Source of the DNA: Aureimonas mangrovi
GTDB lineage: Bacteria; Pseudomonadota; Alphaproteobacteria; Rhizobiales; Rhizobiaceae
NCBI RefSeq assembly: GCF_014058705.1
Contig: NZ_CP059692.1
Location: 811,001-875,000 of the forward strand
Length of the DNA stretch: 64,000 nt
Direction of reading: 5' to 3'
Below are positions 5,238 to 34,769 of this stretch, in pieces (position 1 is the first letter of the stretch; every line of letters begins with the position of its first letter). The notes beneath the pieces were generated by a model, which made no database searches, had not been told where the DNA came from, and saw nothing but the letters and a program-made list of their open reading frames with translations. The position numbers and the translations under genes were made by a program.

Positions 5238-5309
5238 GACTAATCTAGGAACTGGACAATCGCGTTTGCTATTCCAGCTGTACCTACAGCGTTTGGATGC
5301 CTGTCAGGC

Positions 5310-5341
5310 TGGCGGAGGGAGCGGGATTCGAACCTGCGATA
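5310..5341 (-). other. tRNA-Ser 3'-end remnant (possible attachment-site scar)
   Basis: The minus strand reads TATCGCAGGTTCGAATC followed by CCGCTCCCTCCGCCA. This is the end of the variable arm, the T arm with the invariant GGTTCGAATC, the acceptor 3' strand and the encoded CCA of a bacterial serine tRNA. One T-stem pair is mismatched, and no anticodon arm or 5' half lies next to it, so it is not a functional tRNA. A short 3' tRNA copy beside transposase debris is what remains after an element integrates at a tRNA gene. The element itself is not visible. Confidence 0.6.
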
Positions 5342-5559
5342 CCTAAAAGCGCTGAACGATCAGATGTTTGGCCGACCATACAATTTCAACAGTGTTCTAG
5401 TCGGAACATTCGCTGGAACAAGTGGTCGCTGTCAACGGCGTCCAAGAACTATCCAAAGGACATGGTTGCGCTACCACGGCTTCGACCTTGGGCTCGGCGG
5501 CACGCAATTCGTGCGCGGCGTTTCGTTTTCCTTTGGCGACCGGATGACACGACGAACGA

Positions 5560-5775
5560 GCTGCGCTTCTCGCCGGCAATCGACCCGCGGTTCAGCTATC
5601 GCGGTGAAGACGTCGTTCAGGCGCTGGAACGCATCTGCGGCGAGGTCGGCTATCCGAAGGCCATCCGGGTCGACCAGGGATCGGAGTTCATCTCCCGCGA
5701 CCTTGATCTCTGGGCCTATCAGAAAGACGTCGTTCTCGACTTCTCGCGCCCGGGGAAGCCGACGGATACGGATGT
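5560..5775 (+). pseudogene. IS3-type transposase (orfB integrase core) fragment
   Basis: The translated segment contains YRGEDVVQALERICGEVG, YPKAIRVDQGSEFISRD and DFSRPGKPTD, the middle of an rve-type integrase core, with the second catalytic aspartate in VDQGSEF. It breaks off just after GKPTD, where intact relatives continue with the region carrying the catalytic glutamate. No start codon, first aspartate region or terminal inverted repeats are seen. The copy is inactive and is truncated against the IS110 remnant on the other strand. Confidence 0.7.
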
Positions 5776-5789
5776 TGTTGGAAAGCGTT

Positions 5790-6420
5790 TTACGCCGGCG
5801 CTGGTCGATTCTTCGATGGCTTTCCCGCAGCGGGTCGGGTTCGCCATCTGGATGTGAAGTCGGCATAGGTCCTCTCGGCTGCTTCGACGGGCGCCCGCTC
5901 AGCGGCCCGCTTCTCCGGGATGTTGTAGTTGTAGGCTGCCCCGCGCTTGGCGTGCTCGGCTGGTCGCCCGGCCTTCAGCTCGATGCTTCGGAACTTGCGC
6001 GCCAGAAGGGCCGGTCGCACCCAGATGTAGTCTTCGTTCTTCGTCAGCATGTGCCAGATGATCATCGCCAGCTTGCGGGCCGTCGCAACGGCCGCGATCG
6101 GCTTGCCCCGTTTGGCTGCGATGCGCTGAAAGAAGGCGCGCAAGGGTCCGGGCGAGCGCGCTGCCGCCCATGCCGCTTCGACCAGCATGCCACGCGCCTG
6201 GCCTCGACCCTGCTTGGTGATCCGCCCGTGATAGGCCGGCCCTTCGCCGGACTGCCGGGTGCTCGGGTTCAGGCCGAAGTAGCCGACAAGCTTCGTGGAT
6301 CGGCAAAGCGCCGGATATCGCCGATGGCCGCTGCAACGCCGGACGCAACCGTCATGTCGATCCGTGTCTGCAGATCGGCCTGATCGCCGCGCCGGGACTC
6401 ATAGGTGTAGAGCGAGCGAC
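5790..6420 (-). pseudogene. IS110-family transposase, 5'-truncated and frameshifted
   Basis: Minus-strand translation gives TRIDMTVASGVAAAIGDIRR then FADPR, a one-base deletion near 6290, then KLVGYFGLNPSTRQSGEG and AYHGRITKQGRGQARGMLVE. This is the transposase_20 domain that forms the C-terminal half of IS110/IS116/IS902 transposases. The N-terminal DEDD half is missing. In intact copies CGAAAGCTTGTC would be expected; here it is CGAAGCTTGTC, which explains the frame break. The copy cannot be functional. The flanks are too eroded to recognise element ends or a bridge RNA. Confidence 0.75.
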
Positions 6421-6623: not shown

Positions 6624-6663
6624 GTATAAAAATAAATTTTGACGGCCTAACTTGTTTTTATAC
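6624..6663. promoter_or_regulatory. AT-rich inverted repeat in the nadC leader
   Basis: GTATAAAAA (6624-6632) and TTTTTATAC (6655-6663) form a perfect 9-bp inverted repeat with a 22-base spacer, about 110 bases before the nadC start. The spacing would place both arms on the same DNA face for a dimeric repressor. TTGACG (6639-6644) inside the spacer followed after 16 bases by TACGAA could be a weak promoter. The whole stretch 6451-6769 has no gene; this repeat and the TTAGTAT site are the only structure I see in it. Confidence 0.35.
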
Positions 6664-6769: not shown

Positions 6770-7606
6770 ATGTATGATAAGTTCGTCGCCCAGAAGCTGA
6801 TTGATCTCTGGCTTACCGAAGATATCGGCTGCTTCGATCTAACAGCCCAGCTCATGGTCGACGCGAAGGCGCAGGCGACGTTCTACATGAATGCGCGCGA
6901 GGAGATGACACTCGCCGGCGTCGAGGTCGCTGCGCAGGTTTTCCGCAGTTACGATCCCAGCTGCAAGGTCGAGCTGCGCTGCAATGACGGTGACGTCGTT
7001 GAAAAGGGCACCGTCCTGATGGTCATCTCCGGGCCAGGGCAGTCGCTGCTGACGGCCGAACGCACCGCCCTCAACATCGCCCAGCGTCTGTCCGGCATCG
7101 CCACCGAGACAGCGAAGTACGTTAAGGCGATCGAGCACACCAAGGCTCGTCTTCTAGACACGCGCAAGACGACGCCGGGCCTGCGCATGCTGGAGAAGCA
7201 CGCGGCCGTCTGCGGCGGGGCGTTGAACCACCGGCTTGGGCTCGACAGCGGCGTGATGCTCAAAGACAACCATATCGCCGTATGCGGCAGCATCGAGGCC
7301 GCCGTGAAGCGCGCCCGCAGGCATCTTCCTGCGCTGACCAAGATCGAGGTCGAGGCCGACCGGATCGAGCAGGTTCGCGAGGCGCTCGACGCCGGTGCTG
7401 ACGTCATCATGCTCGACAACATGGAGAACGAGGCGATGGTCGAGGCTGTGCGTCTCGTCAATGGCAGAGCCCTCGTCGAGGCATCGGGGGGCATCCGCCT
7501 CGACACCATCGCCGGAAAGGCGGAAACGGGCGTCGATTTCGTTTCCACCAGCCGCCCGTTCCAGTCCGCTCCGGCCGTCGATATCGGCCTCGACGACGAG
7601 GCATGA
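6770..7606 (+). CDS. nadC: Nicotinate-nucleotide pyrophosphorylase (carboxylating), quinolinate phosphoribosyltransferase
   Basis: 278 residues from the ATG at 6770, chosen because GGAGG lies 8 bases upstream; in-frame upstream codons lack a ribosome site. NadC condenses quinolinate with PRPP to nicotinate mononucleotide, CO2 and PPi. The catalytic signature is complete: TAERTALNIAQRLSG, LLDTRKTTPGLRMLEKHA, NHRLGL, MLKDNHI and the C-terminal SGGI. ModD relatives diverge in this signature, which favours a true NadC. There is no nadA or nadB nearby. It sits 22 bases ahead of the kinase-phosphorylase fusion gene and upstream of a nicotinate degradation locus, so a catabolic rather than biosynthetic role is inferred: decarboxylating quinolinate to feed nicotinate breakdown. 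Confidence 0.9.
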   Translation: MYDKFVAQKLIDLWLTEDIGCFDLTAQLMVDAKAQATFYMNAREEMTLAGVEVAAQVFRSYDPSCKVELRCNDGDVVEKGTVLMVISGPGQSLLTAERTALNIAQRLSGIATETAKYVKAIEHTKARLLDTRKTTPGLRMLEKHAAVCGGALNHRLGLDSGVMLKDNHIAVCGSIEAAVKRARRHLPALTKIEVEADRIEQVREALDAGADVIMLDNMENEAMVEAVRLVNGRALVEASGGIRLDTIAGKAETGVDFVSTSRPFQSAPAVDIGLDDEA

Positions 7607-7628
7607 GGTCCTGAGGCGGGGGTCGGAC

Positions 7629-9716
7629 ATGCAGGTGGGAACGCTCTTCTACATCGTTGGCCCGAGCGGCGTCGGCAAGGACACGCTGATCTCGGGCGCG
7701 ATGGCGATGCTCGCCGGGACGGGGCGCTACGTTCAGACGAAGCGCGTCATCACACGCCCCGCGGCCATTGGCGAGGATCACGAGCCTGCCTCCACCGCGG
7801 CTTTCGACGCTATGTGCGCGGACGGAGCGTTCCTCCACCATTGGGGAGCCCACGAGCTGCGATACGGCTTGCGGCGTACGCTGCTTGAAGATCTGGCGGC
7901 AGGTCGCAACGTCCTTGCCAACGGATCGCGGCGCGCGCTCCCCGACCTTGCCGGAACGGTCGATCGTCTCGTTGTCGTGGAAATCACCGCCTCCCCGGCG
8001 CTCCTAGCCGAGCGGCTGGCCCGGCGCGGACGGGAGAGCGCGGACGAGATCGCCGCCCGCATCGCACGCGAGGTTCCGCCCTTGCCGAGGACCGGAGATC
8101 TCGTGCGCATCGTCAATGACGGCGGCGTAGACGAGGCGGTCGCGGCGCTGGTCGCAGCACTGGAACGCATGGCGTCACGGCTCGTCCTCAAGCGGATGCC
8201 CGTCACCTCCGCAAGGCGGCACACGGCATTCCTAGCCGAAGACTGCACCGCCGTGAACGCCTCCGCCTATGCCGGCTCCGGCCGGATCGAAATCCGCTCG
8301 ACGGCACGGCCCGCGGTTCCGGCCGACCTCATGCTGATCGAGCCGGGGAATGGGCTGGACGGCGACGAGGTCGGGTTGAGCCGCGAAGCCTTCGAAAAGC
8401 TCGGGCTGCCGGAAGGCGCGCTGGTCTCGATTGATCGCACGCCTTCACCCTCCAGCCGCGCGTTGCTGCGCCGCAAGATCGGGGGCGGCGCGCTCGACAC
8501 GGAGGAGTATGCGACGCTCTTTCGCGAGATCGTCGAGCAGCGCTACCCCGAAGGCGAAACAGCCGCCTTCCTCGTCAAGGCCATCCAGTCCCTCGATGAT
8601 GAGGAGACGATCGCCGTCGCGAAGGCTCGCTGCGGGTTCTCGCCACGTATCGACTGGGGCGTGCCGATCGTCGTCGACAAGCACTCGCTCGGCGGCGTTC
8701 CAGGCAGCCGCATCACGCCCATCATCGTGCCGATCGTAGCCGCGGCAGGCCTGCTGATGCCCAAGACCTCCTCGCGCGCAATCACCTCCGCCTCCGGCAC
8801 CGCAGACACGATGGAGGCTCTGTGTCGCATCGATCTGGATGGCGGGCAGATCCGCGAGGTCGTTCGAAAGACGGGTGGCTGCATCGCCTGGAACGGAAAG
8901 CTCAACCATTCCATCCTCGATGATGTGGTAAACGCCGTCACGCGGCCGCTCGGTCTCGACAGCAACCAGTGGTCGGTCGCGTCGATCCTCTCGAAGAAGT
9001 GGTCTGCCGGCGCCACTCATGTCGTCATCGACCTGCCGTTCGGACCGAGGGCCAAGCTGAAGAGCCAAACCGAGGCCGAGAAGCTCGGTCGCCTCTTCGA
9101 GGTTGTCGGCGCCGGGCTCGGCCTGATCGTGAAGGCGTTTGCGACCGATGGCTCGAAAGTCATCGGGCGGGGCCTCGGCCCCTCGCTCGAACTTCGCGAC
9201 GTCCTCGCAGTGCTCGACAATGCGCCGCAGGCCTCGCGCGCGCTGCGCGATAAGGCGCTCTTCTACGCGGCGAACATCCTGCATTTCGCGGGCCATGCCC
9301 CGACGCTCGACGCCGCGCGCGAGGCTGCGGAGGACATTCTCCTCTCTGGTGAGGCGCGGCACAGGCTCGATGCGATCGCCGCCGCGCAGGGCAATGTATC
9401 ACAGGTCGCGCCGGCACGCCTCTCACGCTCCGTTGGCGCGCATGCGGCCGGAACGATTGGCGGCATCGACGGCTGGCATCTGGGCGGCATCGCGCGACGG
9501 GCTGGCGCCCCACACGACAAGTCGGCCGGCGTCGATGTGCTCGTTGAGCCGGGCCGCCAGGTCGAGGCGGGCCAACCGCTTTACACGATCTACGCCTCGG
9601 ACATCGCCTCTCTCGAGGAGGCCGCCGCCGAAGCTTCCCGCGAACCGGGCGTTGCGATCGCTATGGCGCAAGAAGACGCGCTGCAGTGGACGATCGCCGG
9701 CCAAGGGGCCCTCTAA
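7629..9716 (+). CDS. Fusion of PhnN-like ribose-1,5-bisphosphate phosphokinase and AMP-phosphorylase-like (thymidine phosphorylase family) enzyme
   Basis: 695 residues from the ATG at 7629, 22 bases after nadC, with a purine-rich ribosome site. Residues 1 to about 185 form a guanylate-kinase-like P-loop domain (GPSGVGKD at 11-18, RVITRPA lid region), as in PhnN, which converts ribose 1,5-bisphosphate and ATP to PRPP. Residues from about 190 resemble archaeal-type AMP phosphorylase of the DeoA superfamily: an N-terminal extra domain, then VVDKHSLGGVPGSR from about 348, then KTSSRAITSASGTADTME. These phosphorylases release the base from a nucleoside 5'-monophosphate and yield ribose 1,5-bisphosphate. 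The two halves therefore share an intermediate. Beside nadC, the protein could split NaMN and regenerate PRPP; that assignment is inferred. Confidence 0.85.
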   Translation: MQVGTLFYIVGPSGVGKDTLISGAMAMLAGTGRYVQTKRVITRPAAIGEDHEPASTAAFDAMCADGAFLHHWGAHELRYGLRRTLLEDLAAGRNVLANGSRRALPDLAGTVDRLVVVEITASPALLAERLARRGRESADEIAARIAREVPPLPRTGDLVRIVNDGGVDEAVAALVAALERMASRLVLKRMPVTSARRHTAFLAEDCTAVNASAYAGSGRIEIRSTARPAVPADLMLIEPGNGLDGDEVGLSREAFEKLGLPEGALVSIDRTPSPSSRALLRRKIGGGALDTEEYATLFREIVEQRYPEGETAAFLVKAIQSLDDEETIAVAKARCGFSPRIDWGVPIVVDKHSLGGVPGSRITPIIVPIVAAAGLLMPKTSSRAITSASGTADTMEALCRIDLDGGQIREVVRKTGGCIAWNGKLNHSILDDVVNAVTRPLGLDSNQWSVASILSKKWSAGATHVVIDLPFGPRAKLKSQTEAEKLGRLFEVVGAGLGLIVKAFATDGSKVIGRGLGPSLELRDVLAVLDNAPQASRALRDKALFYAANILHFAGHAPTLDAAREAAEDILLSGEARHRLDAIAAAQGNVSQVAPARLSRSVGAHAAGTIGGIDGWHLGGIARRAGAPHDKSAGVDVLVEPGRQVEAGQPLYTIYASDIASLEEAAAEASREPGVAIAMAQEDALQWTIAGQGAL

Positions 9717-9808
9717 CCGCACTCAGCGAACCCTTCAACGAGCTTGCCCACCACGAGAGACTTTCCCCTCGAACGACCTCCCCACCAACCGAAAAGGAAC
9801 GACGTCAC

Positions 9809-10783
9809 ATGAAGACATATGCCAGGAAGCCCGCTCTCCTCTTGTCGGCCGTCGTCGCGGCAGGCCTCGCGGGAACGGAGGCCAAGGCCGAGAACTACAC
9901 GCTGTGCGGCGCGAGCCCTGGCGGCCTGTGGGGCCTTCTGGGCGTGGGCCTCGATGCAGCCGTCAAGCAGACGGACCCGTCCTCGTCCGTGACCTACCAG
10001 ACTTCCAGCGGCGGCTTCGCCAACATCGTTCAGATGAGCCAGGGCGCTTGCGACATGGCCATCGTCCACATGGGCGAGGCGGTGATCGCCAACAACGGAG
10101 ATGAGCCGTTCCCGGTGCCGATGGATGATTTCGCACTTGTCGCCGTCCTCTACAACTGGGCGCCGATGCAGTGGCTGATGAACGAGCAGTTCGCCGAACA
10201 GCACGGAATTGTCTCGATCGCGGACATGGTCGGCAAGCCCGTCGACCTCGTCGTCAACCGCCGCGGCATCCTGCCGAGCATCCTCGCCGAAGTCGCTCTC
10301 GAGCAGGCCGGTCTCACCTTCGACGATCTGTCGAGTGCTGGCGGCTCGGTTCAGTATCAGGGCTCGCAGACGGCCGAAGAGCTGATGAAGGACGGACGTG
10401 GCGACGTGTGGACCAACGCCATGTTCATTGGCACCGGTTCGATCGGCTCCATCGCCGAGAGCGTCGACCTGCGCCTCCTCTCCGTGCCCGAGGATGTGGT
10501 CGCCTACATGGCGGAGAACTATGGTTCGCTGCCTTCGGTGATCCCGGCGGGAAGCTACGAATGGCAAGACGCCGACGTGCCAACTTTCAGCGCTCAGGCC
10601 GCCTTGATCGTGCCTAAGTCGATGGACTCCGCCGAGGTCGAGGCGCTTACCCGTTCGCTGGTCGAAAACATCGACCAGCTCACCCAGGTCCACAGCTCGA
10701 TGCAGGCGCTTACGCCGGAGATCATGCAGTCGGGCAAGAGCGTCGCCTATCACGAGGGCGCGCTCGCAGCTTACGCGAACTGA
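9809..10783 (+). CDS. TAXI-family TRAP transporter solute-binding protein
   Basis: 324 residues with a signal peptide (MKTYARKPALLLSAVVAAGL, cut near EAKA). The mature start ENYTLCGASPGGLWGLLGVG and the YQTSSGGFANIVQMSQG region are typical of TAXI proteins, which bind small acidic solutes for TRAP transport. The ATG at 9809 follows AAAGGAAC. The gene lies between the nadC/fusion pair and the fused TRAP permease, inside the nic locus, so a pyridine carboxylate such as quinolinate or nicotinate is a reasonable but unproven ligand. A stem-loop separates it from the permease gene. Confidence 0.88.
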   Translation: MKTYARKPALLLSAVVAAGLAGTEAKAENYTLCGASPGGLWGLLGVGLDAAVKQTDPSSSVTYQTSSGGFANIVQMSQGACDMAIVHMGEAVIANNGDEPFPVPMDDFALVAVLYNWAPMQWLMNEQFAEQHGIVSIADMVGKPVDLVVNRRGILPSILAEVALEQAGLTFDDLSSAGGSVQYQGSQTAEELMKDGRGDVWTNAMFIGTGSIGSIAESVDLRLLSVPEDVVAYMAENYGSLPSVIPAGSYEWQDADVPTFSAQAALIVPKSMDSAEVEALTRSLVENIDQLTQVHSSMQALTPEIMQSGKSVAYHEGALAAYAN

Positions 10784-10858: not shown

Positions 10859-12778
10859 ATGATGGCCTTCTTCAACAGCATGTTCGCGGTCGGCGGTCGC
10901 CGGGACCTTACCGATCCCGTGGCGACCATCGTCAAGGTCTACGCAGCTGCTGTCGCGCTGTGGGTGCTGTGGGAAACCACTTATGCGCGGGTCGACGCTC
11001 TTTCAGCAACGGCCGTCTTCCTGGCGGCGATGCTGCCGCCGTCCTTCCTCCTCATCCGAGGCAGCGAAGGCGCGCCGCGCTCGCGGGTCCCTTGGTACGA
11101 CTGGGCGCTGGTGGCGATCGGGCTCGCGACCGCTGTCTACTTCGTGGCGAACATCGACGTCATCGCCACGCGGATCAGCCTTTTCCTTCCGCTGACGAGC
11201 GTCCAGACCATCGCGGCGGCGTCGATCATCTTCCTCACGCTCGAGATCACGCGGCGAACGGTTGGCCTGTTCCTGCTTCTGATCGTGCTGGCGTTCACGG
11301 CCTACAACCTGTTCGGCCATCTCATCCCCGGGCCGCTCGGCCATGGCTACATCAGCGTCAACCACTTCCTCGATATCAACGTCTTCACCGGTGACGGTGT
11401 CTTCGGCGTGCCGGTGCGTGTCGCAGCCACCTACGTGTTCCTCTTCGTGATGTTCGGGACCTTCCTCGAAGCGGCGGGTGGCGGCGAGTTCTTCTTCCGT
11501 GTCGCTGCCGCGCTTACCGGTCGTTCGCCGGGCGGCCCGGCCAAGGTCGCCGTCGTCTCATCAGCTTTGTTCGGCACGATGTCCGGAAGCCCGACCGCCG
11601 ATGTCGTCGTCACGGGGTCCGTCACGATCCCGATGATGAAGCGCCTAAAATACAACCCGACGCTCGCTGCCGCCGTCGAAGTGGCCGCCTCCACCGGCGG
11701 AAGCATCCTGCCGCCCGTCATGGGCTCGGCTGCCTTCATCATGGCCGAGTACACTGGCATCAGTTATGTCACGATCGTCTTCGCAGCCATCATCCCCGCC
11801 ATCCTCTATTACGCATGCATCATGCTGCAGGTGCATTTGCGCGCCGAGCGGCTGCAACTCGCTGGTCTCGGCCGAGATGAAGTGCCCGCCGTCGCACGCA
11901 CCCTTCGCGAGGGCTGGATCTACGTCGTCCCGCTCACCGTGCTGGTCGTCGTTCTAATGCAGGGCTACTCGCCCACCTTCGCGGCCGTCCTCGCCATAGC
12001 CTCGATCATCGTCGCATCATGGCTTCGGCCGGGTTACAGGCTCGGCCCGCAACGCATATTCGAAGCGCTTTCGACGACGACCGTTCGCATGCTCGGCGTG
12101 ACCGGCGCCTGCGCCGCGGCGGGCCTCGTGATCGGCGGCATCACGATGACTGGCCTCGCCATGAAGTTCAGCTACATCACGTTCCTCTTTGCGGGCGACA
12201 GCATGATGCTGGGGCTCCTCCTCGGCGCAATGGTGACGATCCTGCTTGGGCTGGGCATGCCGACGCCGAGCGCCTACGTGCTCGCTGCTGTGCTCATCGG
12301 CCCGACGCTGGTCAACACCTTTGGCATTCCGACGCTCAACGCGCATCTGTTCCTGATGTATTTCGCGGTCCTGTCCGCGATGACGCCGCCAGTCGCCGTG
12401 GCCGCCTATGCGGCGGCGGCGATCTCCGGCGGCAACCCGATCAAGATCGCGTTGAGCGCCTGCAAGCTTTCGATCGCCGCGTTCGTCATGCCCTTCGCGT
12501 TCGTCTACGCGCCCAGCATCCTGGAGCCCGCGTTCGAGCTGGAGACGCTTATCCAGATCGCCACCGTCTGCCTTGGAACGTTCTTCGTCGCAGTCGGAGC
12601 GGAGGGGTACCTGCGCAAGCCGCTGCTGGCGCCGGTTCGCGTGGCCGTCTTTGGCGGAGGTCTGCTGATGTTTACGCCGAGCTACGCATTCGCGACCGTT
12701 GGCTTTCTGTTCGCCGCTGTCCCTCTCGTGGTCGTGTCTCGCGGCGTGAAGGCGGGGCGGAGCGCACCTACCGCTTAG
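10859..12778 (+). CDS. TRAP transporter permease, fused 4TM/12TM type (DctQ-DctM fusion)
   Basis: 639 residues with many hydrophobic segments, the normal size for the fused permeases that work with TAXI binding proteins. The DctM-like part shows SSALFGTMSGSPTADVVVTG then STGGSILPPVMGSAAFIMAE, and GLGMPTPSAYVLAAVL further on. The cytoplasmic-membrane protein would import the solute bound by the TAXI protein. ATG codons at 10859 and 10862 are both possible starts. The gene is followed 47 bases later by nicE, so the transporter is probably co-transcribed with the catabolic genes. Confidence 0.9.
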   Translation: MMAFFNSMFAVGGRRDLTDPVATIVKVYAAAVALWVLWETTYARVDALSATAVFLAAMLPPSFLLIRGSEGAPRSRVPWYDWALVAIGLATAVYFVANIDVIATRISLFLPLTSVQTIAAASIIFLTLEITRRTVGLFLLLIVLAFTAYNLFGHLIPGPLGHGYISVNHFLDINVFTGDGVFGVPVRVAATYVFLFVMFGTFLEAAGGGEFFFRVAAALTGRSPGGPAKVAVVSSALFGTMSGSPTADVVVTGSVTIPMMKRLKYNPTLAAAVEVAASTGGSILPPVMGSAAFIMAEYTGISYVTIVFAAIIPAILYYACIMLQVHLRAERLQLAGLGRDEVPAVARTLREGWIYVVPLTVLVVVLMQGYSPTFAAVLAIASIIVASWLRPGYRLGPQRIFEALSTTTVRMLGVTGACAAAGLVIGGITMTGLAMKFSYITFLFAGDSMMLGLLLGAMVTILLGLGMPTPSAYVLAAVLIGPTLVNTFGIPTLNAHLFLMYFAVLSAMTPPVAVAAYAAAAISGGNPIKIALSACKLSIAAFVMPFAFVYAPSILEPAFELETLIQIATVCLGTFFVAVGAEGYLRKPLLAPVRVAVFGGGLLMFTPSYAFATVGFLFAAVPLVVVSRGVKAGRSAPTA

Positions 12779-12825: not shown

Positions 12826-13575
12826 ATGCACCCCATCCGGATTGGACAGATCGTTCCGAGTTCCAACGTGACGATGGAGACCGAAATTCCCGCTCTGCTG
12901 CGCCTGCGCGAGACCATCTCGCCGGAGCGCTTCACTTTCCATTCCTCGCGCATGCGCATGAAGAAGGTGACGGCCGAGGAACTGGCCGCGATGGACCGCG
13001 ACAGCGACCGCTGCGCGCTGGAGCTCAGTGACGCCAGGGTCGACGTGATGGGCTACGCATGCCTCGTCGCGATCATGTCGATGGGGCACGGCTATCACGC
13101 GCGTTCGGCCGAGCGGCTGCACCAGGTGACGGTCGACAACGGCAATCCGGCGCCCGTCGTCTCCTCGGCCGGCGCGCTGTGCGAGGGCATCAAGGCGATC
13201 GGCGCCAGGCGCGTGGCGGTCGTCGCGCCCTACATGAAGCCGCTGACGCAGATGGTCGTCGACTATATCGGCAACGAGGGCATCGAGGTCGTCCACTGGC
13301 GCGCGCTCGAGATCCCAGACAATCTCGCCGTCGCCGCTCACGATCCAGCCAATCTGCCCGGCATCGTCGACGGGATCGAGACGGCTGACGTCGACGCGGT
13401 CGTGCTGTCGGCGTGCGTGCAGATGCCCTCGCTCGCTGCCGTTCCCCTTGTCGAGGCGCGCACCCGCAAGCCCGTCCTGACCGCCGCGATCGCGACGACG
13501 TGGTCGATGCTGCGCGCGCTGGATCTGCCGACCCGCGTTCCGGGCGGCGGCACGCTCCTTTCGGGCGCCTACTGA
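12826..13575 (+). CDS. nicE: Maleate cis-trans isomerase
   Basis: 249 residues, Asp/Glu racemase superfamily. Maleate isomerases convert maleate to fumarate using two active-site cysteines; here these are Cys79 (GYACLVA) and Cys197 (LSACVQM), spaced as in the characterised enzymes. SSNVTMETEIP at the N-terminus matches the substrate-binding region. AAGGA precedes the ATG, inside a small palindrome AGGAC-AG-GTCCT. This is the last step of the nicotinate pathway and delivers fumarate to the TCA cycle. The stop shares a base with the nicD start (TGATG). Confidence 0.93.
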   Translation: MHPIRIGQIVPSSNVTMETEIPALLRLRETISPERFTFHSSRMRMKKVTAEELAAMDRDSDRCALELSDARVDVMGYACLVAIMSMGHGYHARSAERLHQVTVDNGNPAPVVSSAGALCEGIKAIGARRVAVVAPYMKPLTQMVVDYIGNEGIEVVHWRALEIPDNLAVAAHDPANLPGIVDGIETADVDAVVLSACVQMPSLAAVPLVEARTRKPVLTAAIATTWSMLRALDLPTRVPGGGTLLSGAY

Positions 13576-14360
13576 TGGCGCGCGGCTACAACGTCCGCGC
13601 CAACGGCATCCGCCAGCACCTGATCCATTATCCGGGGCAGGGGCCGGCGATGCTTCTGGTGCCGGGGATCACCTCGCCTGCGGTGACCTGGGGCTTCATC
13701 GCCGAGCGTCTTGCCGAGCGCTTCGATGTACATGTGCTCGACGTGCGCGGCCGCGGTCTCACCCAAGCAGGCGATCTCGACTATTCGCTGGATGCGATGG
13801 CCGCCGACGCAGTGGCGGTCGCGCAGGCCGCCGGTCTCGGCAAGCCGATCGTTCTCGGCCATTCGATGGGCGCGCGCATCGCCATCCGTGCGGCGCGCGG
13901 CGCGCCGGACGCCTTTGCCGGGCTCGTGCTTGTCGATCCGCCGGTGAGCGGGCCGGGCCGGCGCCAATATCCCTCGAACTGGCCGTGGTACGAGGATTCG
14001 ATCCTGCTCGCGCAGAAAGGTTGCTCGGCCGAGGACATGAAGGCCTTCTGCCCGACCTGGACCGAGGACCAGCGCGCCCTGCGCGCCGAGTGGCTCCACA
14101 CCTGCCAGCTGGATGCCATCGACACCGCCTTTCGTGGCTTCCACACCGACGACGTTCATCAAGACCTGCCGCATCTCTCGCTGCCCATGCGCCTCGTGGT
14201 CGCCGGTGGCGCGCCGGTGATCGGCGAGGAGGACGTCGCCGAGATCCGCGAACGCGCGCCTGCGATCGAGGTGCGCGTGGTGGAGGGTGCCGGCCACATG
14301 ATCCCTTGGGACGACCTCGAGGGCTTCCTCGCGGCCGTCCTCGATTTCAAAGCCACCTGA
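13575..14360 (+). CDS. nicD: N-formylmaleamate deformylase
   Basis: 261 residues, alpha/beta hydrolase fold. The catalytic triad is visible as Ser97 (LGHSMGA), Asp121 (LVDPP) and His241 (GAGHMIP), matching the spacing of the Pseudomonas putida enzyme with an offset of four. It hydrolyses N-formylmaleamate, the ring-opening product of NicX, to maleamate and formate. The start overlaps the nicE stop by one base, and the protein begins MARGYNVRANGIRQHLIHYP. The physical order nicE-nicD-nicX-nicF places all four lower-pathway genes together. Confidence 0.93.
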   Translation: MARGYNVRANGIRQHLIHYPGQGPAMLLVPGITSPAVTWGFIAERLAERFDVHVLDVRGRGLTQAGDLDYSLDAMAADAVAVAQAAGLGKPIVLGHSMGARIAIRAARGAPDAFAGLVLVDPPVSGPGRRQYPSNWPWYEDSILLAQKGCSAEDMKAFCPTWTEDQRALRAEWLHTCQLDAIDTAFRGFHTDDVHQDLPHLSLPMRLVVAGGAPVIGEEDVAEIRERAPAIEVRVVEGAGHMIPWDDLEGFLAAVLDFKAT

Positions 14361-14388: not shown

Positions 14389-15420
14389 ATGGATCAAGCC
14401 AGCTTCACCGAGATCTGCCTGCATCAGCTCAAGATGTCGGGCGTCCACGAGGGCGAGAAGCTCGTGATTCTCACGCAGGGCAGCGACCGGATGGACTATG
14501 CGGATGCCTTCATGGCAGCGGGCCAGCGTCTCGGCGCCAGGATGTACCACATGCGTCTGCCCGCGCCGCCCATCGTCGGCGCCTGGGCCGTCGGCCAGAC
14601 GGGCCTTGCCGCCATGCCCGAGGCCGTCGAGGCGCTGAAGAACTGCGACATGCTGATCGACTGCGTGTTCCTGCTGTTCAGCCCCGAGCAGTTCGCCATC
14701 CAGGCCGCCGGCACGCGCATCCTGACGGCCGTCGAGCCGCCAGAGCTTCTGGCGCGTATGCTGCCCTCCAAGGAACTGCGCGAGAAGGTCGAGATCGGCG
14801 CCGAATACCTTGCGAAGGCCAAGGTGATGCGCATCACCTCGCCGCACGGTACCGATGTGACCTACAAGCTCAACACCTACGAGACCGTAGCCGAATACGC
14901 CTGCACCGACCAGCCGGGCCGCTGGGATCACTGGCCCTCGGGCTTCGTCTTCACCGGCGGCGACGACGATGGCGTCGACGGTCAGATCGTCGTGGCGCAG
15001 GGCGACATCCTCCTGCCGCAGAACATGTATGTCCGCGATCCGATCACCTACACGATCGAGAAGGGCTGGGTGGTCGACATCCGCGGCGGGCTCGATGCCG
15101 AGCTGGTCAAATCCTACATGGCCGGCTTCAACGATCCTCGCGGCATGGGCATGAGCCATATCGGCTGGGGGATGAATCCGGCTGCCAAGTGGCACGGCAT
15201 GGTGCCGGGCGAGTTCCCGGGCGGCATGGGGATGGAGCCGCGTTCCTTCTACGGCAATGTCATGTTCTCCACCGGCCCGAACAACGAGCTGGGCGGCCCG
15301 AACGACACCGCCTGCCATCTCGACATCCCGATGCGTGGCTGCTCGCTCTTCCTGGACGACGAGCCGATCGTGATCGACGGCGACCTCGTCGTGAAAGAGA
15401 TGCAGATGGCGCGCGCTTGA
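14389..15420 (+). CDS. nicX: 2,5-dihydroxypyridine 5,6-dioxygenase
   Basis: 343 residues. NicX opens the 2,5-dihydroxypyridine ring with O2 and Fe(II), giving N-formylmaleamate. It has the M29 aminopeptidase-like fold rather than a classical extradiol fold. The iron ligands are His257 (MSHIGW), His310 and Asp312 (ACHLDIP), at the same spacing as in the P. putida enzyme with a constant offset of eight. AGAAGGA stands before the ATG, 28 bases after nicD. All key residues are intact, so the gene is expected to be functional. Confidence 0.95.
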   Translation: MDQASFTEICLHQLKMSGVHEGEKLVILTQGSDRMDYADAFMAAGQRLGARMYHMRLPAPPIVGAWAVGQTGLAAMPEAVEALKNCDMLIDCVFLLFSPEQFAIQAAGTRILTAVEPPELLARMLPSKELREKVEIGAEYLAKAKVMRITSPHGTDVTYKLNTYETVAEYACTDQPGRWDHWPSGFVFTGGDDDGVDGQIVVAQGDILLPQNMYVRDPITYTIEKGWVVDIRGGLDAELVKSYMAGFNDPRGMGMSHIGWGMNPAAKWHGMVPGEFPGGMGMEPRSFYGNVMFSTGPNNELGGPNDTACHLDIPMRGCSLFLDDEPIVIDGDLVVKEMQMARA

Positions 15421-15480: not shown

Positions 15481-16128
15481 ATGTCTCAGGCGGTCGTCTA
15501 CGATCGGGCAGGTTTCGGCGCCAACGTGCCGCGCGGATCGCGCCCGGCCGTCCTGGTCGTCGATTTCAGCTACGGCTTCACGGACACGCAGTATCCAACG
15601 GCGGCCGAGATGGGTGCCGAGATCGAGGCGACGAGACGACTGACCGACTTTGCACGGCGGGCGGGGATGCCGGTCGTCTACACGACGATCGCCTACCGGC
15701 CCGCCGAGCGTGACAGCCTGCCCTGGCTGAAAAAGGCGAAGGGCATGGCGGCGCTGATGGTCGGAACCCGCCTCATCGAGATCGATGCGCGCGCCGGCAT
15801 GCAGGACGAGGACGCGCTGATCGTCAAACACGGCGCATCCGCGTTCCACGGAACCAACCTTGCCGCGCTCCTGACGGGGGCCAAGGTCGATACGCTCGTC
15901 GTTACGGGTGCGACGACCTCTGGTTGCGTGCGCGCCAGCGTGGTGGACGCGGTTCAGTGCGGTTTCAACGTTTTGGTTCCTGCCGATTGCTGCGCCGACC
16001 GCGCGTCGGCGCCGCACGAGGCGAACCTCTACGACATGCAGCAGAAATACGCCGACGTGACCGACAGCGCCGATGTCCTCGCATGGCTTGGCCAGGTCGC
16101 GGGGGCGCGCGAGGCGGCGCGGGCCTGA
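15481..16128 (+). CDS. nicF: Maleamate amidohydrolase
   Basis: 215 residues of the isochorismatase-like cysteine hydrolase family. The catalytic triad is Asp28 (LVVDFS), Lys116 (IVKHGAS) and Cys149 (TSGCVRAS). It hydrolyses maleamate to maleate and ammonia, the step before NicE and one that releases the pyridine nitrogen for assimilation. It is separated from nicX by 60 bases, with a GGGGAAAGAAAG ribosome region before the ATG. A strong GC hairpin follows the gene and may reduce transcription into the symporter pair. Confidence 0.93.
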   Translation: MSQAVVYDRAGFGANVPRGSRPAVLVVDFSYGFTDTQYPTAAEMGAEIEATRRLTDFARRAGMPVVYTTIAYRPAERDSLPWLKKAKGMAALMVGTRLIEIDARAGMQDEDALIVKHGASAFHGTNLAALLTGAKVDTLVVTGATTSGCVRASVVDAVQCGFNVLVPADCCADRASAPHEANLYDMQQKYADVTDSADVLAWLGQVAGAREAARA

Positions 16129-18070: not shown

Positions 18071-18505
18071 TCATGTCAGCTTGGCCAGAAGTTTGAGGAA
18101 GACTTGCCGCTCACGCGCGTTCAACGGTTCGAGGGTCGCCTCGGTGATCTCCTTGACGACGGGAATGGTCGCCTGCACCAGCGCGCGCCCCTTCTCGGTC
18201 GAGCGCAGGACGTAGCGCCGACGGTCGACCTTGTCGCGCTCGGTGGTCAGGAGGCCCTGGCTTTCAAGCCGCGACACCACGCCCTTCGTCGTTGCGGCAT
18301 CCATCGCGACAAGGCGGCCGAGCGAGTTCTGCGAAATCGGGCCGGGCTCGCTGTAGAGACGGAAGAGCGTCGAGAACTGCGTGGCGGTCAGCGTTGCTCC
18401 CGCCGCGCGCGAGAACAGGGTCATGTGACGCTGATAGGCCTTGCGCAGGAGGAAGCCGACCTGCTCGTCGAGAACATAGTCGGATGGCTTCACCTGATCG
18501 CCCAT
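18071..18505 (-). CDS. nicR: MarR-family transcriptional regulator of nicotinate degradation
   Basis: 144 residues with a winged helix: the recognition helix region is SLGRLVAMDAATTKGVVSR, followed by the wing DKVDRRRYVLRSTEKGRA. NicR homologues repress nic genes and are released by the pathway intermediate 6-hydroxynicotinate. It is divergently transcribed from nicA with about 155 bases between them, the classical arrangement for controlling both directions from one operator region. The TTAGTATGCATCC site at 18627 is a candidate operator. The name rests on MarR family membership plus location. Confidence 0.85.
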   Translation of the reverse strand: MGDQVKPSDYVLDEQVGFLLRKAYQRHMTLFSRAAGATLTATQFSTLFRLYSEPGPISQNSLGRLVAMDAATTKGVVSRLESQGLLTTERDKVDRRRYVLRSTEKGRALVQATIPVVKEITEATLEPLNARERQVFLKLLAKLT

Positions 18506-18641: not shown

Positions 18642-18660
18642 CTGAACGAGCGTGGTCGCG

Positions 18661-19173
18661 ATGAGGCGGGAGACGCAAAGGTCTGTGAGGTTCTGCCTGA
18701 ACGGCAAGGAGCGCACTGAAACCGTCGATGTCGAGCGTTCGCTTCTCGACGTCCTGCGCGCCGACTTCGCTATCAAGGGCCCGAAATACGGCTGCGGCCT
18801 CGCCCAGTGCGGAAGCTGCACGGTGCTGGTCGACGGCGCGCCGGCCAGAAGCTGTGTCCTGCGCGCGGCCAAGGCCGACGGCAGCGAGATCGTCACGCTC
18901 GAAGGGCTCGCGGATGACGAGCGAGGCGTGCTCCACCCGGTGCAGCAGGGCTTCATCGACGCGCAGGGCGCGCAGTGCGGTTATTGCCTCAACGGAATGA
19001 TTATGACGACGGTGGCGCTTTTGCGCGCCAATCCCGCTCCGAGCGACACAGAAATCCGCAGCGCCCTGCGCCACAATCTCTGCCGCTGCGGCACGCATCA
19101 GGAAATCCTTGAATCAGTGCGGCGGGCCGCAAGCCTCACGGCGGCTCGTCAGGCAGGCGGAGTCGCCACATGA
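18661..19173 (+). CDS. nicA: Nicotinate dehydrogenase, small [2Fe-2S] subunit
   Basis: 170 residues from the ATG at 18661; a GTG at 18652 would add three residues. It contains the two [2Fe-2S] cluster motifs of molybdenum hydroxylase small subunits: a plant-type ferredoxin set (KYGCGLAQCGSCTVLVDG) and a C-terminal set (QCGYCLNGM and HNLCRCGTHQE). It passes electrons from the molybdenum site of NicB to the cytochrome part. NicAB hydroxylates nicotinate to 6-hydroxynicotinate with water as oxygen source. The stop overlaps the nicB start by 4 bases. Confidence 0.93.
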   Translation: MRRETQRSVRFCLNGKERTETVDVERSLLDVLRADFAIKGPKYGCGLAQCGSCTVLVDGAPARSCVLRAAKADGSEIVTLEGLADDERGVLHPVQQGFIDAQGAQCGYCLNGMIMTTVALLRANPAPSDTEIRSALRHNLCRCGTHQEILESVRRAASLTAARQAGGVAT

Positions 19174-22100
19174 CGACGACCCCGCGCTCCGGCTCCATTT
19201 CAGTCTATCGCGAGACGCCCGCGCGCCGCGATACGCTCCTTACATTCGAGGCGAGCGGCATCGTCACCGCCTTCAACGGCCACGTGGATCTGGGCACCGG
19301 CATCCAGACGGCGCTGGCGCAGATCGCCGCCGAGGAACTGGACCTTCCCGTCGACCGGGTCCGCTTGGTGCTGGGCGACACGGCTCGCACGCCGGATCAG
19401 GGACCGACCATCGCCTCCGAGACGATCCAGATCGCCGCCGTGCCGCTGAGGCTGGCGGCCGCGCAACTGCGGGCCGAACTGGCAACCCGCGCCTCGCTGC
19501 GGCTGAACGCGCCGGTGGAGGAGATCGCCCTGCGGGACGGGCGCGTCGGCCATGCCGGTACCGAACTGGACTATGCCGACCTTCTCGACGACGAGGCGGC
19601 TTTCCTCGCGCTCGACCTTCAGGCGGTGGTGAAGGACCCTCGCGCCTATTCGATCGTCGGGCGCAGCGTCCCGCGCGTCGACCTGCCCGCCAAGGTGACG
19701 GGCACCCATCGATATATCCACGACGTGGACGTGGCCGACATGGTGCACGGCCACGTCATCCGGCCGCCTTATGAGGGCCGCGACAGCGGCGAATTCATCG
19801 GCCGCAGTCTCATCGGCTACGATCTGGCGGCCGTCGAGGCGATGGACGGCTTCATCGCGGTGGTGCGCGAGGGCGATTTCCTCGGCGTCGTCGCGCAGCG
19901 CGCCGACCAGGCGCAACGCATTGCCGAGGCGCTGCCGGTCGACTGGCATCTGCCGCCCGACTTGCCGGACCTGACGAACCTTGCCGAGGCGATCCGCGCG
20001 CAGCCCTCGACGCCGCGCCGGCTCGATGAAACGGGCGATTTTTCGGCCGGCATCGCGCAGTGCGACAAGCGCTTCGTGCGCACTTATCTCTGGCCGTACC
20101 AGCTCCACGGCTCCATCGGTCCTTCCTGCGCGATCGCGCACTGGCAGGGCGAGAGCGCCATCGTCTGGTCGGGCAGCCAGAACCCGCACATGCTGCGCGG
20201 CGACCTCGCCACTCTCTGCGGCCTCAAGCCCGAGCGCATCGAAGTGCGCCGCTATCAGGCGGCGGGCTGCTACGGTCGCAACTGCGCCGACGACGTCTGT
20301 GGCGATGCCTTGATCCTGTCGCGCGCCGTTGGGCGCCCCGTGCGCGTGCAACTGACAAGGGCGCAGGAGCATCTGTGGGAGCCGCGCGGAGCGGCGCAGG
20401 TGATGGACGTCGAGGGCGGGCTGAAGGACGGCCGCTTCCACGCCTACAGCCTCGACACCTGGTATCCGTCCAATCGCGGACCGAACCTGTCGCTTCTTCT
20501 CACCGGGCGCATCACGCCCGAGCCGCGCCCGACCGACATGGGCGACCGCACGATCATCCCGCCCTATCGCATCGCCCACAAGGCGATCACCGTGCACGAC
20601 ATGGCGCCGATCGTGCGCGCCTCCTGGATGCGCGGCGTCTCGGCCCTGCCCAACACCTTCGCGCATGAGAGCTTCGTCGACGAGCTGGCAGCGGAGGCGG
20701 GCGAGGATCCCGTCATCTTCCGCCTGCGCCATATCGACGACGAGAACACAGCCGATCTCATCCGTCAGACGGCCGAGAAAGGCGGATGGGAGGAGCGCAC
20801 CGGGCCGCGCCGTCGGCGCGACGGGCGCATGGCCTACGGGCAGGGTTTCGCCTTCGCCACCTATGTCCACGGCACGTTTCCGGGCACGGCCGCAGCCGCC
20901 GCTGCCTGGGTCTGCGACGTCACGGTCGATCTCGACAGCGGCGAAGTGAACCTGACGCGCGTCTTCGTCGGCCAGGACCAGGGCCTCGTCATCAATCCGG
21001 ACGGCGTGCGGCACCAGATCCACGGCAACGTCAACCAGACGGCGAGCCGCGTTTTGACCGAGAAGGTCACGTTCGACGAGATCACCCGCACCGGCTCTCC
21101 GCAGAGCTGGGCGAGCTATCCGATCCAGACCTTCCCGGAGACGCCGCATATCGAGACCATGCTGGTGGAGCGGCCGGGAGACGCAGCGCTCGGCGTCGGC
21201 GAGAGCGCGGCCGTGCCGTCCGCCGCCGCAATCGCCAACGCCATCTTCGATGCCACCGGCATTCGCCTGCGCGAGGTGCCATTCACGCCCGAAAGCCTGC
21301 GCCGCGCGCTGCAGGAAGAGAAGGGGCCGACCGCCGTTTCCGGTGCGCATGCGGGCTCGGCTGCGGCGAAGACGAAAGGCTGGCGCGAGCGGATGGGCTC
21401 CAGGGGGCTGGCGGCCGCCGCCGCACTGTGCGGCACGCTCACCGTCGCGGCGGTCGGTCTGCCGATCCACCGTTCGATCCCGCCGACGCCGGCACCGGGC
21501 GCCTCGAGCTTCTCGCCCGAACTTCTTGAGCGCGGCCGGCAGGTCTTCGCCACGGGCAATTGCGCGGACTGCCACACCGCGCCGGGCGGGGCTGCCAATG
21601 CGGGCGGGCTGCCGGTCGAGACGCCCTTCGGCACGATCTACACGACCAACATCACCCCGGACCCCGAAACGGGCCTCGGCCGCTGGAGCTTCACCGCCTT
21701 CGAGCGCGCCATGCGCCAGGGTATCAGCCGCGACGGGACGAACCTCTATCCGGCCTTCCCCTACACCTCCTTCGCCCGGATGGAGGGCGAAGACCTCTTC
21801 GCGCTCTACGCCTATCTCCAGACGCTCGAGCCGGTTCGCCAGGAGGCGCAGCCGTCGCAACTCGTCTTCCCGGCCAATCTGCGGCCCGTGAACGCGCTGT
21901 GGAACATGATGTTTCATGACGCGACGCCGCTTGAGCCGGAGCCCGCGAAGGGCGAGGCGTGGAACCAGGGCCGTATCCTCGTCGAGACGACGGGCCATTG
22001 CAGCGCCTGCCACACGCCGCGCAACGCGCTGGGCGCTGAGAAGGGCGGCGAGGCGGCCCTGTCCGGCGCGACAGTGAAGGGATGGTACGCCCCGCCGATC

Positions 22101-22619
22101 GCCGGGGAGGGCGCGTCCACCTTCGGCTGGAGCGAGGAACGCTACTTCGAGTATCTGCGCACCGGTTTTGCGGACGGCCTCGGCGCGGCGTCCGGGCCGA
22201 TGGCCGACGTCGTGGACAATCTCCAGGCTCTGCCCGACGCCGACATCGCGGCGATGGCGACCTATCTCGCCTCGCTGACTCCACAGGTGCCGGCGGGAGC
22301 CGACCCCGTCCCCGAGCCGGCTCGGGCATATAACGTCTCGGCGCCCGATGCGACGCACCGCTTGTTCGAGACCGCTTGCGCCGTCTGCCACGAGCCTGTC
22401 GTCACAGATCTCGCGACGGCCGCGCGCATCCCGCTGTCGCGTTCGCCCGCCATTCGCGCAGCATCGCCCGAGCCTGTGCGTACCGCGATCCGCGAAGGCA
22501 TCCGCGCGCCGCTCTCGCTTTCGACGCGCGATATGCCGGCCTTCGCGTTGGAGCTGACGGAGCGCCAGATCGACGACCTCGCGGATTATGTGCGGGCTCG
22601 ATATGGCGCCTCGCGGTGA
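19170..22619 (+). CDS. nicB: Nicotinate dehydrogenase, large subunit: molybdopterin domain fused to triheme cytochrome c
   Basis: 1149 residues. The first ~720 form the molybdopterin-binding hydroxylase domain (for example FNGHVDLGTGIQTALAQIAA near the start and ALGVGESAAVPSAAAIANAI, with the catalytic GVGE glutamate). A hydrophobic stretch near 740-760 is probably a membrane segment, followed by a cytochrome c region with three CXXCH heme sites at Cys798 (CADCH), Cys944 (CSACH) and Cys1070 (CAVCH). This matches the architecture of P. putida NicB, which sends electrons to the respiratory chain instead of NAD+. The topology implies a cytoplasmic active site and periplasmic hemes. It follows nicA by a 4-base overlap. 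Confidence 0.95.
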   Translation: MTTTPRSGSISVYRETPARRDTLLTFEASGIVTAFNGHVDLGTGIQTALAQIAAEELDLPVDRVRLVLGDTARTPDQGPTIASETIQIAAVPLRLAAAQLRAELATRASLRLNAPVEEIALRDGRVGHAGTELDYADLLDDEAAFLALDLQAVVKDPRAYSIVGRSVPRVDLPAKVTGTHRYIHDVDVADMVHGHVIRPPYEGRDSGEFIGRSLIGYDLAAVEAMDGFIAVVREGDFLGVVAQRADQAQRIAEALPVDWHLPPDLPDLTNLAEAIRAQPSTPRRLDETGDFSAGIAQCDKRFVRTYLWPYQLHGSIGPSCAIAHWQGESAIVWSGSQNPHMLRGDLATLCGLKPERIEVRRYQAAGCYGRNCADDVCGDALILSRAVGRPVRVQLTRAQEHLWEPRGAAQVMDVEGGLKDGRFHAYSLDTWYPSNRGPNLSLLLTGRITPEPRPTDMGDRTIIPPYRIAHKAITVHDMAPIVRASWMRGVSALPNTFAHESFVDELAAEAGEDPVIFRLRHIDDENTADLIRQTAEKGGWEERTGPRRRRDGRMAYGQGFAFATYVHGTFPGTAAAAAAWVCDVTVDLDSGEVNLTRVFVGQDQGLVINPDGVRHQIHGNVNQTASRVLTEKVTFDEITRTGSPQSWASYPIQTFPETPHIETMLVERPGDAALGVGESAAVPSAAAIANAIFDATGIRLREVPFTPESLRRALQEEKGPTAVSGAHAGSAAAKTKGWRERMGSRGLAAAAALCGTLTVAAVGLPIHRSIPPTPAPGASSFSPELLERGRQVFATGNCADCHTAPGGAANAGGLPVETPFGTIYTTNITPDPETGLGRWSFTAFERAMRQGISRDGTNLYPAFPYTSFARMEGEDLFALYAYLQTLEPVRQEAQPSQLVFPANLRPVNALWNMMFHDATPLEPEPAKGEAWNQGRILVETTGHCSACHTPRNALGAEKGGEAALSGATVKGWYAPPIAGEGASTFGWSEERYFEYLRTGFADGLGAASGPMADVVDNLQALPDADIAAMATYLASLTPQVPAGADPVPEPARAYNVSAPDATHRLFETACAVCHEPVVTDLATAARIPLSRSPAIRAASPEPVRTAIREGIRAPLSLSTRDMPAFALELTERQIDDLADYVRARYGASR

Positions 22620-23840
<1,221 letters not shown>

Positions 23841-25245: not shown

Positions 25246-25301
25246 CCGGTTCGGGGCGGCTTTGCCGCCCCATCTCTTCTTCCAACAATTCGGAACTGAC
25301 G

Positions 25302-30555: not shown

Positions 30556-30595
30556 ACACTACCAAATTCTTGAAGCTGCCGCGGGGAGCCGCGCA

Positions 30596-34687: not shown

Positions 34688-34769
34688 CCTGACTACGAGG
34701 ACTGTTAGGGAAGGTCTCGCCGACGCAGCCGGCGATCCGCCGTGTTCGCATCGGCTCGATCGGTTCGTG

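Follow-up and report, generated by a model that had tools for sequence, protein, structure and literature searches.

The window analysed here is a 64,000-nucleotide stretch of the Aureimonas mangrovi genome (contig NZ_CP059692.1, positions 811,001 to 875,000), a genome assembled as one contig of 3,485,124 bases. Near its start lies the gene pair that is the subject of this report: nadC, followed by one gene that joins a PhnN-type kinase to a nucleotide phosphorylase, a pair that we propose converts quinolinate to nicotinate (Table 1). The 22-base spacing between the two genes given in the initial annotation was borne out on reading of the sequence, with nadC ending at position 7606 and the fusion ATG at 7629. 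Its description of an AMP (adenosine monophosphate)-phosphorylase-like and a PhnN-like domain in one protein also held, the parts being recognised by the NCBIfam models NF003338 and TIGR02322, respectively, with the PhnN half at the N-terminus. The further statement that nadC occurs here without nadA or nadB was correct at the locus only. Neither gene was found among the 29 open reading frames (ORFs) of the window scanned against NCBIfam, all within its first 40 kb, and the paired nadC thus does not appear there as part of a de novo nicotinamide adenine dinucleotide (NAD) operon. Elsewhere in the genome, a second NadC, 45% identical, directly follows a nadB-like gene (named from its reading frame and relatives). 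A further PhnN match in the genome is a separate gene (L002, 47%). Membership of a carbon-phosphorus (C-P) lyase cluster was considered and rejected, as no C-P lyase family was present among the same 29 ORFs.

As had been proposed, the pair heads a nicotinate degradation locus. NicX, NicC and NicE were named from close solved relatives, NicA and NicB, which are nicotinate dehydrogenase-type subunits, by domain make-up, and NicF by family and position. The candidate nicD, also named by family and position, may encode an N-formylmaleamate deformylase. A TAXI-family solute-binding protein directly after the pair is a candidate for quinolinate or nicotinate uptake, and a sodium symporter gene lies further downstream between nicF and the MarR gene.

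Table 1. Features of the window at and around the nadC–fusion pair.
Feature	Position	Strand	Evidence or note
Inverted repeat upstream of nadC	6624..6663	.	GTATAAAAATAAATT, 10 nt, AACTTGTTTTTATAC
nadC	6770..7606	+	TIGR00078, 320.5 bits vs cut-off 198.4; closest solved chain 1x1o
phnN::phosphorylase fusion, 695 aa	7629..9716	+	NCBIfam domains; N-terminal PhnN kinase, C-terminal nucleotide phosphorylase
PhnN domain, about residues 1-182	7629..8174	+	TIGR02322 (match 4-179), 159.7 vs equivalog cut-off 156
Phosphorylase domain, about residues 185-680	8181..9668	+	NF003338, 552.9 vs cut-off 434
TAXI-family TRAP solute-binding protein	9809..10783	+	TIGR02122 above cut-off for ORF 9686-10783
TRAP fused permease	10859..12778	+	TIGR02123, 582.7 vs 320.65
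nicE, maleate isomerase	12826..13575	+	Solved chain 4fq7, 2e-123
nicD candidate, alpha/beta hydrolase	13413..14360	+	Pfam Abhydrolase_1; start codon uncertain
nicX, 2,5-dihydroxypyridine 5,6-dioxygenase	14389..15420	+	Solved chain 7cn3, 6e-92
nicF candidate, isochorismatase-family amidohydrolase	15481..16128	+	4l07, 2e-86; PF00857
MarR regulator, BpsR-like	18071..18505	-	PF01047; best solved chains 2nnn, then 6pcp, 6pco
nicA, 2Fe-2S subunit of nicotinate dehydrogenase	18652..19173	+	Fer2/Fer2_2
nicB, molybdopterin subunit with C-terminal cytochrome c domains	19170..22619	+	MoCoBD and Cytochrom_C domains
nicC, 6-hydroxynicotinate 3-monooxygenase	22674..23840	+	Solved chain 5eow, 1e-166

The paired NadC exceeded an equivalog cut-off (TIGR00078), and R132, K133, H154, R155, K165, D166, N167 and H168 were invariant in six paired NadCs. 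The motifs TRKTTPGLR, HR and KDNH, which we take to be functional motifs of NadC, were present, with KENH standing for KDNH in the aligned 1x1o. In the kinase part of the fusion, the P-loop residues G11, S13, G14, G16, K17 and D18 were invariant across 53 sequences. The phosphorylase part reached the archaeal-type model NF003338, narrowly missed the sister model TIGR02645 (433.9 vs 434.6) and fell short of the equivalog cut-off of the AMP_phos model TIGR03327 (373.2 vs 535). An AlphaFold model of the fusion (mean pLDDT 90.9, pTM 0.78) had as its top solved structural matches the AMP phosphorylase structures 4ga5 and 4ga4.

Residues were counted after fusions shorter than 600 aa had been dropped (L038, L115, L121 and L123), leaving 81 rows, among which L039/L047 and L040/L085 appear to represent the same two genomes twice. 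One of those dropped, a Paraburkholderia fusion (L038:14989-16827), lacks, in its AMP-phosphorylase part, the greater share of an N-terminal domain that the other five aligned fusions have. The catalytic residues K351, H352, S381, T391, S452 and K456, which by alignment are the equivalents of Escherichia coli DeoA K84, H85, S113, T123, S186 and K190, were present in every row. At the predicted base site the fused clade departs from AMP phosphorylases: R334, N422 and N435 were found in 81/81 rows, H427 in 80/81, and T or N at position 438 in 81/81. Opposite R334, N422, N435, 438 and H427, all 14 stand-alone phosphorylases show M, G, I (V in three of the 14), E and L. Expressed on the Thermococcus kodakarensis AMP phosphorylase, M146, G234, L239, I247 and E250 become R, N, H, N and T/N, and the residues typical of AMP phosphorylases are replaced in 80 or 81 of the 81 rows. 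N435 lies opposite E. coli Tyr168, a residue that contacts an inhibitor in docking (PMC8347464). Arg171, Ser186 and Lys190 have been proposed to contact the base, a point on which studies partly disagree (PMC5238616); the residue opposite Arg171, R439, is present in 78 of the 81 rows. With an acidic residue lost and R, H and N acquired, the site would be suited to nicotinate or another anionic base.

A quick tree of the phosphorylases placed 46 fused rows in one clade (SH-aLRT 100); 36 of the 81 fused rows had been left out at random, and the comparators were the 14 stand-alone rows, the T. kodakarensis enzyme, DeoA and the thymidine phosphorylase that the genome itself encodes, with T. kodakarensis and DeoA on long branches. 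Two stand-alone relatives of the phosphorylase, carried on plasmids (L174:9001-10509 and L175:9013-10500) and annotated as thymidine phosphorylase family proteins, adjoin genes for a ribose-phosphate diphosphokinase and a hydrolase of the metallo-beta-lactamase (MBL) fold.

Relatives of the pair were collected by searching genome contigs with an alignment of six fusions. This gave 209 relatives, of which the best-scoring 80 (L044-L123) were examined, and the counts of loci below refer to these. The fusions span alpha-, beta- and gammaproteobacteria, and a nadC of the window type lies near the fusion in 77/80 loci. Recurrence across three classes suggests that the arrangement in the window is more than chance. 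The distance from the end of the nadC frame to the fusion match was at most 63 nt in 67 of the 77. Among the ten larger gaps, two of 550 nt contain phnN as a separate gene and three of about 1 kb, all from Cupriavidus (L101, L103 and L120), contain a MarR gene. The former two (L121:9851-12036 and L123:9839-12039) have the order nadC-phnN-phosphorylase, with the last two genes separate and overlapping, and show the fusion in a naturally split state. In L084 and L105, two of the three loci that lack nadC, the contig begins immediately ahead of the fusion; the third, L115, is discussed below. The pair is also plasmid-borne in Variovorax, Pacificitalea and Paraburkholderia, with the order TAXI-permease-nadC-fusion on the Pacificitalea plasmid.

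The NadC partner was compared with other NadCs in a tree of 81 paired and 20 other sequences (L196, with no frame containing the motifs, was omitted). The labels changed twice along the tree, and only once in 78% of bootstrap trees; 77 of the 81 paired NadCs formed one branch (92/95) and the remaining four stood apart, so there is no single paired clade. Alpha-, beta- and gammaproteobacterial paired NadCs interleave, which suggests horizontal spread. Among 50 genomes searched at E<1e-20, at least two NadCs were found in 25, only the paired one in 23, and only a non-paired one in two (G260 and G270). Twenty second NadC-like loci, from 19 of these genomes, served as controls, with NadB nearby in 8/20; they include three genes of 31-33% identity (L214-L216) that may be ModD.

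Linkage to nicotinate degradation was assessed in the flanks, defined as up to 10 kb fetched around each locus, with fixed gene-call thresholds. At least two nic genes were present in 17/80 flanks, 6-hydroxynicotinate reductase (Hnr) in 20/80, and either in 31/80. The name of the Hnr family comes from plasmid records, 16 of the 25 matches listed (of 26) being annotated as 6-hydroxynicotinate reductase. In a description of an Hnr cluster, the enzyme was assigned to the THON route, in Azorhizobium and in a strain of the Bradyrhizobiaceae (PMC3511419). Controls comprised 12 of the 14 strong stand-alone phosphorylase matches (the other two lay on short contigs), eight stand-alone PhnN loci picked from many, and the 20 second NadC-like loci. 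Nicotinate genes were found in none of them (0/12, 0/8 and 0/20; 0/40 together). The search for co-occurrence of these domains with nic genes, which the initial annotation had suggested as a check, came out in favour of its reading. Beside one Bosea pair, Hnr is followed by a PRK04334-type protein (L055:6382-7413, minus strand; NF003322 above cut-off).

At the level of whole genomes, NicX (E<1e-40) was detected in 18/50 and 14/30 of the 80 genomes and Hnr in 34/50 and 18/30, so that 75/80 carry one or the other, although L121 counts among the positives solely by a NicX match that is 34% identical. The initial annotation had held that its reading would fail if the pair were common in genomes without nicotinate degradation; among these best 80 of the 209 relatives it was not. 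At least one positive genome was found under 36 of 38 name labels (first title word). With the same threshold, a background of genomes from the window's family gave Hnr in 75/199 genomes, NicX in 33/199 and either in 94/199, or 91/196 after removal of three fusion genomes. A sample of the phylum gave Hnr in 31/398, NicX in 34/398 and either in 54, or 51/395 after removal of three genomes in which the fusion was known or had been deduced from identical coordinates, the rest of the sample being unscreened for it. These unions were counted by hand from the listings, and the backgrounds are probably inflated, since many of the NicX matches in them, at 33-36% identity, may be paralogues. Fisher tests of 75/80 gave p values of 8e-15 against the family (91/196) and 2e-46 against the phylum sample (51/395), both overstated because the genomes are related.

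Transport genes form a further part of the neighbourhood. TAXI, TctC or SsuA-like genes were present in the flanks of 63/80 loci, and TAXI/TRAP homologues in 28/80. In Variovorax, the protein encoded after the pair has Bug27 as its closest solved relative (2.6e-136). Bug27 binds quinolinate in vitro with a dissociation constant (KD) of 136 nM, and bug27 adjoins nadC and phnN in Variovorax, for which a role in NAD metabolism was proposed (PMC11452294). The same source ties Bug genes that adjoin nadC to NadQ and to NAD metabolism; its main text does not contain the word "phosphorylase".

The MarR protein of the window is 44% identical to the one beside the pair in Bosea, and its best solved chains include 6pcp and 6pco, which we take to be BpsR. 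Contacts of BpsR with 6-hydroxynicotinate are Tyr15, His23, Arg26 and His32 (PMC6837509). The window protein shows Y, F, R and H at these positions, three of the four being kept. MarR proteins resembling one of the three from the window, Bosea and Paraburkholderia occurred in 35/80 flanks, and 33 of the 35 had the contact spacing Y-x7-any-x2-R-x5-H, with H as the second contact in 10 of the 33. No BpsR-like MarR was found in the flanks of the 40 control loci.

The inverted repeat upstream of nadC (Table 1) is a candidate operator, and a relative of its half-site, with two mismatches, lies at 22657-22671 just before nicC. A scan for promoters around the pair in the window gave no signal above shuffled sequences. 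A separate 16-bp motif close to TTCGATATCTAAGTTA was seen in L101, L103, L110, L112, L113 and L120. Three to five copies each occur in the five betaproteobacterial loci L101, L103, L110, L112 and L120 (L110 and L112 being nearly identical), one or two in L113, L097, L116 and L093, and none in 7 of the 16 loci scanned. Its sites stand before nadC, the fusion, an SsuA-like transporter gene or a MarR gene, and it looks like the operator of a local regulator; the placement before nadC is partly circular, as the consensus was chosen by eye from upstream regions of some of the same loci.

Two other features of the window were recorded. Just upstream of the locus, a match to IS3/IS481-type transposases (5297-5857), below the family cut-offs, is a possible trace of mobility. 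Beyond nicC, a second catabolic-looking block (24229-35708) contains parts of an ABC transporter, caprolactamase/hydantoinase-like subunits, an old-yellow-enzyme relative, a flavin adenine dinucleotide (FAD) oxidoreductase and a LysR regulator, and perhaps serves lactam degradation.

Taken together, the gene order, families, conservation, linkage and residue changes make it probable, in our judgement, that nadC and the fusion are a catabolic module for the conversion of quinolinate to nicotinate, with phosphoribosyl pyrophosphate (PRPP) as a recycled carrier. In the first step NadC, by the known reaction of its family, would convert quinolinate and PRPP to nicotinate mononucleotide (NaMN), CO2 and pyrophosphate (PPi). 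The phosphorylase domain would then split NaMN with inorganic phosphate (Pi) into nicotinate and ribose 1,5-bisphosphate, which is the AMP phosphorylase reaction with a different base. Such a phosphorolysis is energetically plausible, as the pyridinium N-glycosidic bond is labile. Lastly, the fused PhnN domain, if it performs the reaction known for its family, would use adenosine triphosphate (ATP) to convert ribose 1,5-bisphosphate to PRPP with release of adenosine diphosphate (ADP). The net reaction would be quinolinate + ATP + Pi to nicotinate + CO2 + ADP + PPi, and nicotinate would enter the adjacent NicAB-NicC-NicX route here and the 6-hydroxynicotinate reductase route in other hosts. The specificity for NaMN, the direction of flux, the uptake of quinolinate and any channelling are predictions from these sequences. 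We also consider likely the wider picture of a mobile and widely shared module in which PRPP is a true carrier: quinolinate would be phosphoribosylated in order to be decarboxylated, an NaMN phosphorylase would remove the handle, and the kinase on the same polypeptide would recharge it, possibly with channelling of ribose 1,5-bisphosphate, the module feeding at least two nicotinate routes and being served by several transporter types. The PRPP cycle put forward in the initial annotation is supported at the level of sequence: the gene linkage, the regulators, the homologue of a quinolinate binder and the residues at the base site all fit it.

Several observations weigh against this proposal. 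Two nic genes or Hnr were absent from the flanks of 49/80 loci (L110 has nicB alone), and five of the 80 genomes have neither NicX nor Hnr, namely four metagenome-assembled genomes (L090, L106, L109 and L123) and Acetobacter garciniae (L092). The 80 genomes are the best-scoring of 209 and are not independent, 16 being labelled Bosea. Locus L115 (9806-11458) has a phosphorylase of the fused clade without PhnN or a paired nadC, in a flank that contains nicA, nicB and a TctC gene. At the base site, the conserved R439 adjoins position 438, and the placing of the replaced residues at the base is deduced from an alignment. The paired NadC may also serve NAD synthesis, being the sole NadC found in 23/50 genomes. 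The evidence from Bug proteins is in vitro only, and loss of bug69 in Bordetella left growth on quinolinate unimpaired (PMC11452294).

The same features were considered under other explanations. By extension of the NAD reading of bug27-nadC-phnN (PMC11452294), the fusion could supply PRPP, with AMP or another nucleotide yielding ribose 1,5-bisphosphate and then PRPP, and NadC turning this and imported quinolinate into NaMN, as a salvage route to NAD. PhnN does make PRPP usable by NadC, Bug-nadC neighbourhoods have been tied to NAD metabolism (PMC11452294), the T. kodakarensis AMP phosphorylase takes all natural nucleoside monophosphates (NMPs; PMC8376864), and in nearly half of the 50 genomes searched the paired NadC was the only one found. 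Nevertheless, the pair adjoins nicotinate-destroying genes of two routes and BpsR-type regulators, whereas none of the 20 second NadC-like genes adjoins nicotinate genes and 8/20 have NadB nearby instead; the window genome has, besides this nadC, one linked to nadB, and the base-site positions of AMP-type enzymes are replaced. On the strength of the nicotinate context and the base-site residues we rank PRPP supply from AMP lower, and regard it as unlikely.

Two further explanations were given less weight still. The same chemistry could act as an overflow or salvage of pyridine nucleotides, in which NaMN from quinolinate or NAD turnover would be returned to nicotinate and PRPP, balancing NAD pools or recovering nicotinate, and external quinolinate would not be the main substrate. 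Adjacency of nicotinate genes in 31/80 loci fits this, yet the explanation leaves unexplained the dedicated NadC near the fusion in 77/80 loci, as well as the Bug27-type binder and the three transporter types in 63/80 flanks, and we find it quite improbable. Alternatively, the phosphorylase could act on an ordinary pyrimidine or purine nucleotide, its neighbourhood being a chance hitch-hike on mobile catabolic islands; its characterised relatives do act on NMPs and some copies of the pair are on plasmids. Against such a chance association stand the nadC linkage across three proteobacterial classes with different transporters, the lack of such linkage at 20 stand-alone phosphorylase or PhnN loci, and the upstream motif common to some betaproteobacteria, which together leave it very little credence. 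Conversion of quinolinate to nicotinate through a PRPP cycle accordingly remains the reading that we prefer.

PRPP is known as a precursor of nucleotides, of NAD and of certain amino acids, and quinolinate is a neuroactive pyridine derived from tryptophan. If the proposal is true, PRPP would have a new use, being spent and regenerated in the decarboxylation of a growth substrate, and pyridine acids would have a previously undescribed way into degradation. Functions would follow for proteins that now bear the annotations "phosphonate metabolism protein PhnN" and "thymidine phosphorylase", NaMN phosphorylase would join the known enzyme activities, bug27-nadC-phnN neighbourhoods could be read in an alternative way, and the module would predict which bacteria use quinolinate. 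The initial annotation had left open whether such a PRPP cycle was already known. No published mention of an NaMN or nicotinamide mononucleotide (NMN) phosphorylase, or of a quinolinate decarboxylase, was found in a literature search outside which most subscription journals lay. The cycle, the proposed phosphorolysis of NaMN and the catabolic use of NadC appear to be new, while the parts belong to known families.

Each part can be set beside a known system. The phosphorylase has its fold, family and catalytic residues in common with the archaeal AMP phosphorylase of T. kodakarensis (4ga5/4ga4), and would likewise release a base and ribose 1,5-bisphosphate; it differs in its fusion to PhnN, in five replaced base-site residues and in missing the TIGR03327 cut-off. 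In the archaeal pentose bisphosphate pathway, ribose 1,5-bisphosphate passes through an isomerase to RuBisCO, whereas here it would return to PRPP. The kinase has TIGR02322 and the invariant P-loop in common with the PhnN of phosphonate (C-P lyase) metabolism, but is fused to a phosphorylase and stands beside nadC. Similarly, the paired NadC has the family, motifs and expected reaction of the NadC of NAD biosynthesis, yet forms a nearly separate clade and lies beside the fusion, not nadB, in a degradation locus. The downstream genes of the window correspond to the nic (NicAB-C-X-D-F-E) route, and Hnr of the Hnr/THON route of Azorhizobium flanks the pair in 20/80 loci; both routes begin at nicotinate, to which the pair would add an entry from quinolinate. 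Catabolism of quinolinate by direct hydroxylation has the substrate in common with the PRPP cycle, but no phosphoribosyl intermediate. Quinolinate degradation is also mentioned for Aspergillus terreus (PMC9304392; the subject also of PMC7842363), the other papers found on quinolinate catabolism appearing to be medical or physiological. Finally, the bug27/bug69-nadC(-phnN) neighbourhoods match the Variovorax locus of the pair, and were read there as NAD metabolism (PMC11452294).

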